A DNA stretch of 29,543 nt, from IMG/VR virus record IMGVR_UViG_3300046517_001487, positions 1-29,543 of that record; one strand, 5' to 3'. The stretch comes from a virus. The notes beneath the pieces were generated by a model. It was not told where the DNA came from. It saw only the letters and a list, made by a program, of their open reading frames with translations, and did not search any database. The first letter of the stretch is position 1. Every line of letters begins with the position of its first letter. Shown here piece by piece: positions 22,476 through 28,643 of the stretch. The translations under genes were made by a program, and so were the position numbers.

Positions 22476-23120
22476 ATGAAACGTCTAGTGATAGCGGCAA
22501 TTCTTTGCATTGCCGCAACGTCGGCGCAAGTCTTGCTTGCCTCGCGGGCGAGTGCCGACATCATCGTCAGTCCGCATCTGAGCGGCACCGGCGACAACGT
22601 CATTGCCGATTCGACCAGCACCACTTCTGCGCTTGGTCATCTCAACGGAACCCACCTCGACGTGGTGGATTACACCGGCCTGACCGCCGGCTTCATCGGC
22701 GCCGCCCACGGCAACGATATCAAGATTGATAATACTGTCGGCATCAACGTCCAGGTGTTTGATCCGACCAACACTTTTGTTGTGCCGACATTCACGCAGG
22801 TGTTCAGCCTGAAGGGCACTGGCGACATATTGATGAGCGTCGTTGCCAACGACGGCACCTTTAACTTCAACCTTGGCAACATCGATCCCAATGCACAGTC
22901 GGGCTTCACGGTCAGTGCGCTCAACGGTGAGAGCATTATTAGCCTGTCGTTGCTCGATGTTGGCGGCAACATCACCGATTTCGAGCATAACCGCATCGAT
23001 ATCGCCCCGTTGGCGGTGCCGCTCCCGATCGTTGGCGCCGGCTTGCCTGGCTTGCTGGGCGGCTTGTTTGCCCTGGCCGGTCTGGCGTGGCGGCGCCGAT
23101 CAAGTTTCAGCATCCGCTGA
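22476..23120 (+). CDS. Secreted PEP-CTERM-type protein (possible lysogenic conversion gene)
   Basis: A 214-aa exported protein with GGAG seven bases before the ATG. Signal peptide at residues 1-~27 (MKRLVIAAILCIAATSAQVL, cleavage after ASRASA). The mature region is beta-rich and Asn/Asp/Gly-rich (GTHLDVVDYTGLTAGFIGAA, INVQVFDPTNTFVVPTF, DGTFNFNLGNIDPN). The end has a tripartite sorting signal: PLPIVGAGLPGLLGGLFALA, then GLAWRRRSS, as in PEP-CTERM/VPLPA proteins handled by exosortase in Gram-negative bacteria. This is not a virion gene type; it has its own leader, operator-like site and terminator, so it looks like a host-derived moron. The surface or exopolysaccharide role is unproven. Confidence 0.75.
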   Translation: MKRLVIAAILCIAATSAQVLLASRASADIIVSPHLSGTGDNVIADSTSTTSALGHLNGTHLDVVDYTGLTAGFIGAAHGNDIKIDNTVGINVQVFDPTNTFVVPTFTQVFSLKGTGDILMSVVANDGTFNFNLGNIDPNAQSGFTVSALNGESIISLSLLDVGGNITDFEHNRIDIAPLAVPLPIVGAGLPGLLGGLFALAGLAWRRRSSFSIR

Positions 23121-23746: not shown

Positions 23747-25240
23747 ATGCAAGTGCCTCTGGCCCGTGACCAGAACGACTGGTCGCCCAAGGCGGTCGAT
23801 GCCGTCAAGGTCGCGGCCGAGTTGATCCGGCGCAAGGACAGCGCTGCGCATCTGATCGATTTCACGGAATATACGTTCCCGAGGTATCGCACCGCACCGC
23901 ACCATCGGCTGATTGCCGGGCAGCTCGAGCGTGTCGAGAACGGCGAGATCGATCGATTGATGTTGCTGGTGCCGCCGCGGCACGGCAAAAGCGAGTTGGC
24001 ATCCCACCGTTTCCCGGCCTGGTTTCTGGGGAGACAACCGGACAAGCAGTTCATCTCGGTGTCGGCGACCGAGAGCCTCGCCACCGATTTCGGCCGGGCG
24101 GTCAGGAACACCATCGGCTCGAACGAATACAAATGCATTTTCGAGACCACGACGCTGGCAGAGGATAGTCAAGCCAGAGGCAAGTGGCACACCAGCGCCG
24201 GCGGCATTTATTATGCGCTCGGAATCGGCGGCGCCATCCTCGGCCGCGGCGGCGACGTGATCCTGATCGATGATCCATATGCATCGATGGCCGACGCGAT
24301 GTCGGAGCTGACAAGAAAGAATGTTTGGGATTGGTATGGCGGGACGGCCTACAACCGGCTGATGCCGGGCGGCAGAATTATTATTATTAATCACCGGATG
24401 CACGAGGATGATCTGTGCGGGCAGTTGCTGGCGCAGCAGCACGCCGGCGGCGACAAGTTTACGGTGGTCGAATTGCCAGCCATCAAGGACGATGGCACCG
24501 CATTGTGGGACGACGCCTATCCGATCGAGACGCTGGAACGGATCCGGAGAAATACCCAGCCCAGGTTTTGGTCAAGCCTGTACATGCAGAACCCGACGCC
24601 GGACGAGGGCGATTATTTCAAGCTGGATTGGCTGAAGCCCTATGATCTGCCTCCTGATCGCCAGACCATGCGGGTGTACGGCGGTAGTGACTATGCGGTC
24701 ACCGACAGCGGCGGCGATTATACGGTTCATGCGGTGGTTGGCATTGATCCCGACGCCAGAATGTTTCTGCTCGACGTGTGGCGGAAGCAGGCTGCCTCCG
24801 ACCAGTGGGTCGAGGCGTTCTGCGACTTGGTGAAAAAGTGGAAGCCGTTGGGCTGGGCCGAGGAGCAGGGCCAGATCAAGTCCGGTGTCGGTCCCTGGCT
24901 CGAGAGACGACAAAGGCAGCGCGAGGCGTATTGCTATCGCGAGCAGTTCCCGACCAGAGGCGACAAGGCCATTCGGGCCCAGTCGATTCGAGGAAGGATG
25001 GCGCTTGAGGGTCTCTACGTTCCCGAACACGCCAAATGGTATCCGGCGTTCCGCTCCGAGTTGTTGAGTTTCCCCGCCGGCAAGCACGACGATCAGGTCG
25101 ATGCGATCGGCCTCATTGGGCAGTTGCTTGACAGAATGTCGGCCGGGATCCGGGCGAAAAAGCCCGATGCGCCGATCCAGTTGTCTGGCTACCGGGCGAT
25201 GCGCGAGGTGGCGGGGGTGGATGAGTTCAAGACGTATTGA
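23747..25240 (+). CDS. terL: Terminase large subunit
   Basis: A 497-aa ATPase-nuclease that packages DNA into the prohead through the portal. The ATPase shows VPPRHGKSE (residues 75-83) as Walker A, adenine-region QFISVSATESLATDFGRAV, and Walker B GDVILIDDPYAS (~168-179). The C-terminal RNase-H-like nuclease has GGSDYAVTDSGGDYTVHAVV (metal-binding Asp), a WAEEQGQIKSG segment and the final KHDDQVDAIGL. Length and layout are normal for tailed-phage TerL. There is no ribosome site; an operator-like element abuts the ATG. The partner small subunit is uncertain. Confidence 0.93.
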   Translation: MQVPLARDQNDWSPKAVDAVKVAAELIRRKDSAAHLIDFTEYTFPRYRTAPHHRLIAGQLERVENGEIDRLMLLVPPRHGKSELASHRFPAWFLGRQPDKQFISVSATESLATDFGRAVRNTIGSNEYKCIFETTTLAEDSQARGKWHTSAGGIYYALGIGGAILGRGGDVILIDDPYASMADAMSELTRKNVWDWYGGTAYNRLMPGGRIIIINHRMHEDDLCGQLLAQQHAGGDKFTVVELPAIKDDGTALWDDAYPIETLERIRRNTQPRFWSSLYMQNPTPDEGDYFKLDWLKPYDLPPDRQTMRVYGGSDYAVTDSGGDYTVHAVVGIDPDARMFLLDVWRKQAASDQWVEAFCDLVKKWKPLGWAEEQGQIKSGVGPWLERRQRQREAYCYREQFPTRGDKAIRAQSIRGRMALEGLYVPEHAKWYPAFRSELLSFPAGKHDDQVDAIGLIGQLLDRMSAGIRAKKPDAPIQLSGYRAMREVAGVDEFKTY

Positions 25241-25248
25241 AGGTGATC

Positions 25249-25614
25249 ATGCGCGCACTCATGCTGCTCGGCCTGTTGCTGCTGACCGGCGACGCCGTGG
25301 CGCAGGGCATCGGTACACCGACCAAGCGCGCCTGGATCACCGAGTTCACCACCACGCGGGTCGAGGCGGCGGCCAACATCGCGACCTTGCCGAGCCTGCA
25401 CAAGCAGCCGGCGGTGGATCTGCGGGACGGCCTGGTCAAGTATTTCCAGGCCACCAATCCGACCACCCGCTATGTCCGCATCATGTGCGAGGTGCAGTGC
25501 GCCATCAGCAGCACGGGACCGGCTTCGGTCGACGACATCGTGCTGCCGCTGTTGCATCCGGAATATTTCCTGGTTGCCGGCGTGCAGACCATTTCGGTGA
25601 TTTTGGCACCATGA
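25249..25614 (+). CDS. Small exported protein, first of a tandem pair
   Basis: A 121-aa protein. ATG 25249 has AAGGTGA upstream; a TTG at 25237 is less likely. Residues 1-19 look like a signal peptide (MRALMLLGLLLLTGDAVAQ). The mature part has WITEFTTTRVEAAAN, then YVRIMCEVQCAIS with two Cys three residues apart, then DIVLPLLHPEYFLVAGVQTI. The last part resembles small phage head-associated proteins with a YVR...C...C...PEYF pattern, but those I recall lack signal peptides. It is paralogous to the next gene. Role unknown. Confidence 0.7.
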   Translation: MRALMLLGLLLLTGDAVAQGIGTPTKRAWITEFTTTRVEAAANIATLPSLHKQPAVDLRDGLVKYFQATNPTTRYVRIMCEVQCAISSTGPASVDDIVLPLLHPEYFLVAGVQTISVILAP

Positions 25615-25622
25615 GGACGACT

Positions 25623-25970
25623 ATGCGCGCACTGATGCTGCTGGGCTTGCTGCTAATCCCGAGCGCGGCAAATGCCGCGACGGCGCGGGTCTGGATTGCC
25701 GAGTTTGCCACCGCGCGGGCGCAGGCGGCGGCGCCGTTTGCCGTCTTGCCGGCGCTGACGGTGCAGCCGGTGCTCGATATCTCACTGACCCGCCAGGTCT
25801 CGTTGCTGTTCAGCGGCCAGACCAAGTACATCCGGGTGGTGTGCGAAGTGCAGTGTACCATTCGCGCTGGCGGCAATCCGACCGTCAATGACATCCTGCT
25901 GCCAGCGCTGAAGCCGGAATATTTCGGCGTCGCGCCGGGCTCGACCATTTCGGTGGTGGCGGCGCCGTGA
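25623..25970 (+). CDS. Small exported protein, second of a tandem pair
   Basis: A 115-aa protein. ATG 25623 follows a GAGGA ribosome site and aligns with the start of its neighbour. An in-frame ATG at 25611 overlaps the previous stop. The signal peptide (MRALMLLGLLLIPSAANAA) and mature sequence (VWIAEFATARAQAAAPFAVL, YIRVVCEVQCTIRAGG, ILLPALKPEYFGVAPGSTIS) match the upstream gene, so the pair is a tandem duplication. The stop overlaps a GTG for a 35-codon frame. A virion decoration or periplasmic function is possible; the sequence does not decide. Confidence 0.7.
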   Translation: MRALMLLGLLLIPSAANAATARVWIAEFATARAQAAAPFAVLPALTVQPVLDISLTRQVSLLFSGQTKYIRVVCEVQCTIRAGGNPTVNDILLPALKPEYFGVAPGSTISVVAAP

Positions 25971-26074: not shown

Positions 26075-26118
26075 GCGTGCCGATATACGGCGCCAACAAG
26101 CCGAGACGAAAGGTTAAC

Positions 26119-26346
26119 ATGGAATTGCATCCTTCGACATTCGATCATGTCAAGCCGTCCGACGAACAAGCCGAGACGATGCGCCAGGCCAGCGCGTTGT
26201 CGAAGGGCTACGCCGATGACATCGCCGGGATCCTGCCCGATGGCGCCGACAAGACTTATGTCTTGAGACGCATCAGAGAAACCGCGATGTGGATCAAGAC
26301 TGCCATCATGCGCGAGGACGACGGCTCGCCGCGGATGGAGATTTAG
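26119..26346 (+). CDS. Acb2/Tad1-like protein, candidate anti-CBASS cyclic-nucleotide sponge
   Basis: A 75-aa protein with a GAAAGG ribosome site before ATG 26119. A short two-helix protein: FDHVKPSDEQAETMRQASAL, SKGYADDIAGILPDGADKTY, VLRRIRETAMWIKTAIMRED. This matches the layout I know for the Acb2/Tad1 hairpin domain (Pro/Gln opening, first helix, L-P/C-P turn, R-x-x-x-A-M-W-x-x-x-A-I in the second helix). Acb2 proteins form oligomers that sequester cyclic oligonucleotide signals and block CBASS defence. In this window it sits between terminase and portal. Ligand-binding residues have not been checked, so activity is inference. Confidence 0.7.
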   Translation: MELHPSTFDHVKPSDEQAETMRQASALSKGYADDIAGILPDGADKTYVLRRIRETAMWIKTAIMREDDGSPRMEI

Positions 26347-26545
26347 AAATAAGTTCCTTTCGGATTTCACTCAGTAAAATATATGAGTCGAGGAATGATC
26401 GTTCGACCCAGGTGTCGGCGAGACCGCTGTAATCCTGGCAACGGTTGGCGCTGTCTGCTGCAAGTTTCATGACTTCGATGATCTGCTCTTGCAAGTTCAT
26501 GTTTTTGAATTTTTTGAACCAAGCGTTGTTCATTCGCGTCGTCAT
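26306..26545 (-). CDS. Small hypothetical protein, divergent from portal
   Basis: A 79-aa helical protein with a GGGAGC-type ribosome site before ATG 26545. Sequence: a basic start (MTTRMNNAWFKKFKNMNLQE), helix QIIEVMKLAADSANRCQ, then DTWVERSFLDSYILLSEIRK and a basic tail. The 3' end overlaps that of the Acb2-like gene by 41 bases tail to tail. It is divergent from portal with an operator-like element between. No family recognised; a counter-defence or regulatory role is only suggested by its neighbours. Confidence 0.55.
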   Translation of the reverse strand: MTTRMNNAWFKKFKNMNLQEQIIEVMKLAADSANRCQDYSGLADTWVERSFLDSYILLSEIRKELISKSPSAASRRPRA

Positions 26546-26591: not shown

Positions 26592-26597
26592 GTGGCA

Positions 26598-28643
26598 ATG
26601 ACTTACGCACCGCAGCCGCAACCGCCGCGGGGCGGCAGCTATGGCGACAACGACAAGCGACCCGACGACGATGACGATGACGACGACACCGGCATCGCGT
26701 TTCTGCGGAGGCAGTATCAGGACTTTGCCGCGGCCAAGTACGCCGAGGGCGAGGAGATGTTGGAGGCGCGGCACTACTATCACGGCGACCAGTGGACCAA
26801 GGAAGAGATCCGGGTGTTGCGCAATCGCAAGCAGCCGGTGGTCACCTCAAACCGCATCGTCCGCAAGATCGATGCCGTGGTCGGCCTGGTCGAGCGACTG
26901 CGGCAGGATCCCAAGGCGTTCGCCCGCACGCCGCGGCACGACCAGGGCGCCGAAGTAGCGACGGCGGTCTTGCGCTTTTGCCTGGACAGCAACGACTGGG
27001 CGTCGAAGAGCTCGCGGATCGCCAGGGGCGCCGCGATCGATGGCCTGGCCGGCATCGAATATGATTTGGTGCCGGGCGATACCGGCGACCCGTCGCTGGA
27101 AATGCACATCGTTTACGGCGACGGCTTCTTCTACGACCCGACCTCCTACGACGAGGGCTTCACCGACTGCCGGTATATGGGTGTCGCTAAGTGGATGGAT
27201 CGCGATCACGCTAAAGAACTCGCGCCCCATAAAGCCCAGGAAATTGATGACCTAGTTGAGTCCGGCAGCGACTTGGTCAATGTCAGCGAGTTCGACAAGG
27301 AGAAGAATTGGTTCAATCGATCTTCGAAAAAAATTCGGATGATCGACCATTGGTACATCAAGGGCGGCAAGTGGCGATGGTGTTGGTATGCCGGCGATGT
27401 CGAGTTGGGGCGCGGCAACAGTCCGTTTGTCGACGAGAAGGGCAAGACCTTTCCGCGCTACCGGATGTTCTCGGCCTACGTCGACCACGACGGCGACCGC
27501 TACGGTCCGATCCGCAATCTGAAATCGCCGCAGGACGAGATCAACCATCGGCGCTCCAAGTCGCTGCATCTGCTCAACTCGCGCAAGGTGATCAGCGAAA
27601 AAGGCGCGGTCGACGACATCGAGGTGTCGCGCCGCGAGTGGGCCAAGGCCGACGGCTGGGTTGAGGTCAATCCCGGCCTGAAAATGGAGCCCGACACCAC
27701 CACCTTGAACGACTTCAAGGGCCAGCTCGAACTTTTGCAGGAAGCCAAGAACGAGATCGAGAATTTCGGCCCCAATCCGGCGCTGATCGGGCAGGGGCTG
27801 GAGGACAGTTCGGGCAGAGCTATCCAGTTGCTGCAGCAGGCCGGCATCGCCGAGCTCGGGCCGTATCTGACGGCGTTCAAGAACTGGAAAATCCGGGTCT
27901 ATCGCGATTGCTGGAACATCGTGCAGCGGCACTGGAAGCAGGAGCGCTGGATCCGCGTCACCGACGACCAGAATGTCGCGCAATTTTTCCAGGCCAACAA
28001 ATTGGAGCTTGACCAGTTCGGCCGGCCGATGATCGTCAACGATCTGGGCTCGCTCGATGTCGACATCATCATCGACGAGGGCCCCGACACCGTGAACATG
28101 CAGAGCGACGCGATGCAGGTGCTGCAGTCGCTCGGCCCGCAATTCCTGCAGCAGTTCCCGGAGATTGCCATTACGTTGGCGCCGCTTCCCGCTTCAGTCA
28201 AAAAGCCGATGATCGACAAGATCCAGATGCAGATGAACAAGCCGCCGCCGCCGGATCCGAAGATGATGGCGATCCAGGCCAAAGCGCAGGGCGACGCCCA
28301 GGAACGGCAACAGGATGCCATGCTGGAGCAGCAAAAGGCCCAGCGCGAGAACGCCCAGGCCCAGCAGGACGCGGTGCTGAAGCAGCAGGCCGCCGATCGC
28401 GATTTCGCCAACCAGGTGCGTCAGCAGCAATTCGACGAGCAGGCGCGGCAGCGCGAGGCGCAGCACGATGCCATGCTGCAGCGGATGGCGGCGCAGAACG
28501 AAGCAATGATCGAACGCATGAAGGCCTCTGCCGAAATCGCCATCGCCCACATCCAGGCGCAGGCGAAGATGCAGATCGCCGCCGATGCCCATGAGCAACA
28601 GATGGCGCAGGCCGAAGAGACGGCCGCGACCGGCATCGAATGA
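26598..28643 (+). CDS. Portal protein, P22-like
   Basis: A 681-aa portal, the dodecameric DNA channel at the capsid vertex. ATG 26598 is chosen; GTG 26592 would add two residues. An acidic low-complexity head with eight successive Asp is followed by family segments: EARHYYHGDQWTKEEIRVL, PVVTSNRIVRKIDAVVGLVE, FFYDPTSYDEGFTDCRYMGV, DDEIN-like QDEINHRRSKSLHLLNSRKV and GRAIQLLQQAGIAELGPYL. These are characteristic of P22-like (podovirus) portals. The C-terminal ~150 residues are a long Gln/Ala-rich coiled coil, like the P22 barrel region. Scaffold-like gene follows, as in P22-type head modules. Confidence 0.9.
   Translation: MTYAPQPQPPRGGSYGDNDKRPDDDDDDDDTGIAFLRRQYQDFAAAKYAEGEEMLEARHYYHGDQWTKEEIRVLRNRKQPVVTSNRIVRKIDAVVGLVERLRQDPKAFARTPRHDQGAEVATAVLRFCLDSNDWASKSSRIARGAAIDGLAGIEYDLVPGDTGDPSLEMHIVYGDGFFYDPTSYDEGFTDCRYMGVAKWMDRDHAKELAPHKAQEIDDLVESGSDLVNVSEFDKEKNWFNRSSKKIRMIDHWYIKGGKWRWCWYAGDVELGRGNSPFVDEKGKTFPRYRMFSAYVDHDGDRYGPIRNLKSPQDEINHRRSKSLHLLNSRKVISEKGAVDDIEVSRREWAKADGWVEVNPGLKMEPDTTTLNDFKGQLELLQEAKNEIENFGPNPALIGQGLEDSSGRAIQLLQQAGIAELGPYLTAFKNWKIRVYRDCWNIVQRHWKQERWIRVTDDQNVAQFFQANKLELDQFGRPMIVNDLGSLDVDIIIDEGPDTVNMQSDAMQVLQSLGPQFLQQFPEIAITLAPLPASVKKPMIDKIQMQMNKPPPPDPKMMAIQAKAQGDAQERQQDAMLEQQKAQRENAQAQQDAVLKQQAADRDFANQVRQQQFDEQARQREAQHDAMLQRMAAQNEAMIERMKASAEIAIAHIQAQAKMQIAADAHEQQMAQAEETAATGIE

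Follow-up and report, generated by a model that had tools for sequence, protein, structure and literature searches.

The gene at positions 26119–26346 (+ strand) of the window, i.e. the whole stretch of 29,543 nucleotides of IMG/VR virus record IMGVR_UViG_3300046517_001487 that was analysed, encodes a 75-residue protein that is placed by computation in the Acb2/Tad1 hairpin family (Pfam PF24729), within the PHROG 1454 branch. We consider it somewhat probable that this small protein forms oligomers and acts as a sponge for a cyclic nucleotide of host immunity, with a dinucleotide pocket that differs from that of the characterised Acb2 proteins.

The open reading frame occupies exactly these coordinates, with 75 codons and a stop, and its product (MELHPSTFDHVKPSDEQAETMRQASALSKGYADDIAGILPDGADKTYVLRRIRETAMWIKTAIMREDDGSPRMEI) contains AMWIKTAI, the AMW-xxx-AI signature from which the original prediction of an Acb2/Tad1-like anti-CBASS protein had started. 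The start codon is supported by the relatives, which begin at the same residue, and by GAAAGG (26108–26113, + strand), read from the sequence as a putative ribosome-binding site 5 nt upstream of the ATG. An earlier scan returned 17 relatives with 48–72% identity, and a profile scan returned 58 related loci in viral contigs. A family pattern search found no relatives in bacterial genome contigs, and phage tblastn gave weak matches only (25–36% identity). The 75-codon gene is real, beyond chance, because it is encoded at 58 loci, its dN/dS against the nearest relative (L022) is 0.19, and no antisense frame across it is consistently open. By computation it is under purifying selection; the dN/dS value and the intact frames led us to reject fast decay. 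A consensus built from 43 distinct related proteins reads LHxSTFEYLKPTDEQxxxMxxxRxxxxxYAxxLxxxLPDGPDKTYxLRxxRExAMWxNVAITRxADGSPR. In the window, PDGADKTY (26236–26259, + strand) is the conserved short turn that joins the two long helices, as seen in the alignment of relatives and the AlphaFold model.

Searched against PF24729, the window protein gave an E-value of 7e-4 (20.2 bits, profile positions 4–58), and this copy alone falls below the curated cut-off of 27 bits. It is therefore through the matches of its relatives that it is placed in PF24729: all 12 of the 12 members tested in the first alignment matched (best E 1.5e-9), and further relatives scored 32–35 bits over positions 2–58 of 58. 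The family call of the original prediction is thus backed by the profile and the relatives, as well as by the predicted fold. PF24729 also matches the characterised Acb2 proteins T4 Vs.4 and PaP2 p26. These two match PHROG 717 at about 1e-32, whereas phrog_1454 and phrog_31113 were matched by all 12 members of the window family, with PHROG 717 not listed. In addition, the long helices of T4 Vs.4 and PaP2 p26 are joined by a loop of about 20 residues that the window protein lacks. Judged by sequence, the window protein is not Acb2 proper; it is a member of the short-loop PHROG 1454 branch.

Profile-profile comparison returned PHROG-1454-type hairpin proteins of Gordonia, Mycobacterium and Lactococcus phages (E 6e-18); direct comparison with the profiles of PaP2-type Acb2 (probability 5%) and T4 Vs.4 (44%) gave weak links. 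The short turn is shared with Gordonia phage Chidiebere gp24, whose gene lies immediately 3' of the portal gene, with Mycobacterium phage ScoobyDoobyDoo gp210 and with the protein of Lactococcus phage P1046. These PHROG 1454 proteins, however, begin with FxYHPPTEEQ instead of the TFEYLKPTDEQ of the window family, and its ITRxADGSPR tail is missing from them. The literature searched yielded no characterised protein from the PHROG 1454 branch. Neither the window protein nor the 12-member profile retrieved an Acb2 when solved structures were searched by sequence; the best match of the profile was a designed helical bundle. An NCBIfam search gave no match.

The fold was predicted with AlphaFold using 27 relatives (pLDDT 88.7; mean pLDDT 97–98 across residues 21–50). 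Helices were predicted at residues 5–8, 15–38 and 43–64, with no beta-strands of at least 3 residues in the model, and the two long ones are antiparallel, a feature of PF24729 and the two-helix hairpin layout that had been proposed from the letters. The model thereby has the Acb2 (Vs.4-type) protomer layout of a short N-terminal helix and a long two-helix hairpin (PMC12043709). The best match among solved structures was Acb2 homolog 43 with 3'cADPR (9ptq; Z 7.1, 2.4 Å, 62 residues), followed by T4 Vs.4 with cGAMP (7uq2; Z 6.5, 3.0 Å, 64 residues), and Acb2 of PaP2 (p26, 8h2x) ranked fourth; T4 Vs.4 and PaP2 p26 share the three-helix protomer with the window protein. A Z of 6.5–7 is modest for a helical hairpin, and the weight of the comparison lies in three of the top four matches being Acb2 entries and in the BFVD models, where most top matches carry an Acb2/Tad1 hairpin annotation.

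The short hairpin turn of homolog 43 is as long as that of the window protein (LPEGREKS vs LPDGADKT in the window), but the two proteins are about 13–16% identical, and Thr10 and Lys25 of homolog 43 stand against His and Ser. Its ligand, 3'cADPR, is a Thoeris signal and not a CBASS signal. With Tad1 the hairpin domain is common by Pfam definition and CmTad1 was a weak fold match (Z 4.9); Tad1, however, has an N-terminal beta-sheet domain before the hairpin, which the all-helical protein of 75 residues does not have.

In T4 Vs.4, Y8 and F82 stack on cGAMP, Y8, H11, K23 and R79 bond it, and the exchange Y8A alone causes a >5-fold loss of affinity (PMC10097602). In the Pfam alignment, T4 Y8, PaP2 Y11 and Tyr10 of the relatives share one profile position. 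Position 25 lies 15 residues past position 10 with no gap; T4, PaP2, homolog 43 and 42/43 relatives have a Lys or an Arg there. Where T4 Vs.4 and PaP2 p26 have their Tyr and Lys ligand residues, most of the relatives thus have Tyr and Arg.

The window copy differs at each of these places (all codons on the + strand; alignment and, for the first two, PMC10097602). The base-stacking Tyr position (Tyr in 40/43 relatives; T4 Vs.4 Y8, PaP2 p26 Y11) is His10 (26146–26148), and the ligand-contacting Lys/Arg position (Arg in 42/43 relatives; T4 K23, PaP2 K26) is Ser25 (26191–26193). Lys60-Thr61 (26296–26301) stands where the relatives mostly have Asn-Val, Thr61 aligning with T4 R79, and Met64 (26308–26310), aligned with T4 F82, is Thr in 42/43 relatives. 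None of the five T4 contacts (Y8, H11, K23, R79, F82) is therefore kept in the window protein, which has His10, Pro13, Ser25, Thr61 and Met64. The relatives keep equivalents of only two, Tyr10 (40/43) and Arg25 (42/43); in place of H11, R79 and F82, nearly every one of them has Pro, Val and Thr.

The departures of the window copy from the consensus cluster in this pocket. The copy is off-consensus at 7 of 27 near-invariant columns (four or fewer in the others, save the outlier L072), and at six near-invariant positions it is altered while its nearest relative is not. Of the seven departures, four coincide with residues that contact cGAMP in T4 (P 0.024 by a hypergeometric test chosen post hoc), and positions 10, 11 and 60 also co-vary in a separate clade (L017/L042/L043; P 0.012; post hoc test). 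This suggests a pocket that forms a genuine unit with shifted chemistry, a pattern that binding loss would fit equally.

Binding loss is the main rival explanation. The window gene would then be an allele in which fold and oligomerisation are kept and the signal pocket is lost, as the six near-invariant changes and the four departures on T4 contacts would allow. A motive could come from Panoptes, which is triggered once a sponge removes its signal; the Y8A form of T4 Acb2 is deficient in binding, and escape from Panoptes follows when acb2 is lost (PMC12657218, PMC12657230). The cause would perhaps be the penalty from such sponge-triggered systems, or a host without the signal. However, the low overall dN/dS speaks against a dead allele, as do the intact frame and the preserved hairpin core and PDGxDKTY turn. 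Compared with L001, the excess of change does not reach significance consistently, and we regard a dead allele as unlikely.

A classical Acb2 would bind 3'3'-cGAMP and related cyclic dinucleotides in the same pocket, with His10 stacking and Lys60 giving charge. The fold and family are the same, histidine is able to stack on bases, and Lys60 adjoins the position of T4 R79 and PaP2 R85. We nevertheless hold this to be quite unlikely, as both the conserved basic residue 25 and Tyr10 are lost in the window copy and the cost of Y8A alone in T4 Vs.4 is considerable (PMC10097602).

Under the preferred reading of a sponge with an altered pocket, the 75-residue protein would, by analogy with the family, assemble as a hexamer and hold a CBASS cyclic oligonucleotide or Thoeris cyclic ADP-ribose between its protomers; Acb2 of the Vs.4 type is defined by a hexamer with three bound cyclic dinucleotides and by CBASS inhibition in vivo. 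With the signal sequestered, host effectors would stay untriggered and the phage could complete its replication. Going by the residues, the equivalent of the cGAMP site would be altered by the exchanges Y10H, R25S, V61T and T64M and by the new Lys60. Such a pocket would make the ligand probably other than 3'3'-cGAMP, or one bound only elsewhere, e.g. at the trimer-interface site for cyclic trinucleotides. The role of an anti-CBASS cyclic-nucleotide sponge, as originally proposed, is plausible by family and partly supported; the window copy has lost the cGAMP contacts of T4 Vs.4, and the closest solved structure holds 3'cADPR.

The gene was correctly located between terminase and portal: the terminase large subunit lies upstream (23747–25240, + strand; phrog_38, E 1e-110) and the portal protein downstream (26592–28643, + strand; phrog_156, E 1e-90). 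Its membership in an operon would follow from direction and spacing only, and a scan for promoter and terminator consensus sequences did no better than shuffles. Two small secreted-type ORFs, at 25237–25614 and about 25617–25970 (+ strand), are tandem paralogs of about 48% identity that sit between terminase and hairpin gene and are conserved in L001/L002. On the other side, about 200 extra bases separate the hairpin gene from the portal gene and contain a reverse-strand ORF of 79 aa (26306–26545, – strand), for which no match was found in L001/L002, whose portal starts within about 50 bp.

The original prediction had pointed out that a place among head genes, and not among early genes, would make the timing of expression interesting. 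That such a place is unusual is not supported, as Acb2 genes adjoin capsid, portal or head-tail genes in several known phages. The PaP2-type Acb2 gene adjoins the major head protein and head-tail adaptor genes in Pseudomonas phages JBD67 and AV002, follows the portal gene in Vibrio phage D96a and is flanked by the portal and scaffold genes in Thiohalocapsa phage MD04, so that a head-module location is unsurprising; in PaP2, acb2 is beside replication genes. The hairpin family of the window gene is likewise found in replication modules besides head modules. It occupies the terminase-portal gap in the window clade, the L011 clade and L031, lies just upstream of the terminase in seven loci (L027, L036, L050, L054, L058, L062 and L064) and directly after the portal in L028, and is found amid replication genes in eight (L010, L029, L034, L048, L056, L060, L069 and L073). 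L069 and L068 have an N4-like setting, with the hairpin gene between phage RNA polymerase/replication genes and primase/helicase.

The position between terminase and portal in the window and in the L011 clade could also be read as that of a head-assembly accessory, e.g. a partner of portal or terminase, that merely shares a common helical hairpin. We regard this as very unlikely, since other phages carry the same gene next to one for DNA polymerase, helicase or primase, several unrelated terminase/portal backgrounds contain it, and profile and fold indicate Acb2. Furthermore, in a related Bradyrhizobium prophage the terminase and portal matches are 175 bp apart with no hairpin gene. Given these varied settings and the absence from that prophage, the hairpin gene has the pattern of an exchangeable accessory gene and not of a head protein. 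As a separate observation, the terminase match in the Bradyrhizobium tropiciagri prophage L080 (2691–4850) is split into two pieces with about 780 bp between them, which suggests an intein or an inserted element.

Computation also shows that the hairpin gene has moved horizontally. Compared with L022, dS is 1.1 for the hairpin gene vs 0.09–0.51 for five neighbouring genes, which indicates that the allele was exchanged by recombination; the exchanged stretch may include the small ORF preceding the hairpin gene. Rapid protein change as the only source of the difference from L022 was rejected because of this dS excess over the five neighbours, i.e. allele exchange.

The window also encodes an integrase, a DNA methyltransferase and a primase/helicase, and is therefore probably part of a temperate phage. 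A related portal with 70% identity was found in Bradyrhizobium tropiciagri, the sole bacterial genome contig found with one, which points to a probable Bradyrhizobium-type host. Elsewhere in the window, an ORF of 214 aa (22476–23120, + strand) opens with a signal-peptide-like stretch and ends in a VPLPIVGAGLPGLLGGLFALAGLAWRRR tail, which we take to resemble a VPLPA/PEP-CTERM sorting signal; such an ORF would be unusual phage cargo.

A bolder extension, which we think improbable, is that the clade moves between head and replication modules and shifts its pocket residues coordinately, so that the window copy would sequester an immune nucleotide differing from that of Acb2 and possibly one unassigned to any sponge. 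Phage sponges reveal the immune nucleotides that bacteria really use, and Acb2-type hairpins are already known with different signals, cGAMP (7uq2) and 3'cADPR (9ptq). The present setting is that of soil alphaproteobacterial phages, the defence signals of whose hosts have been little studied, and a clade in which most members conserve the pocket residues while a few change them in concert provides natural variants for studying the evolution of sponge specificity.
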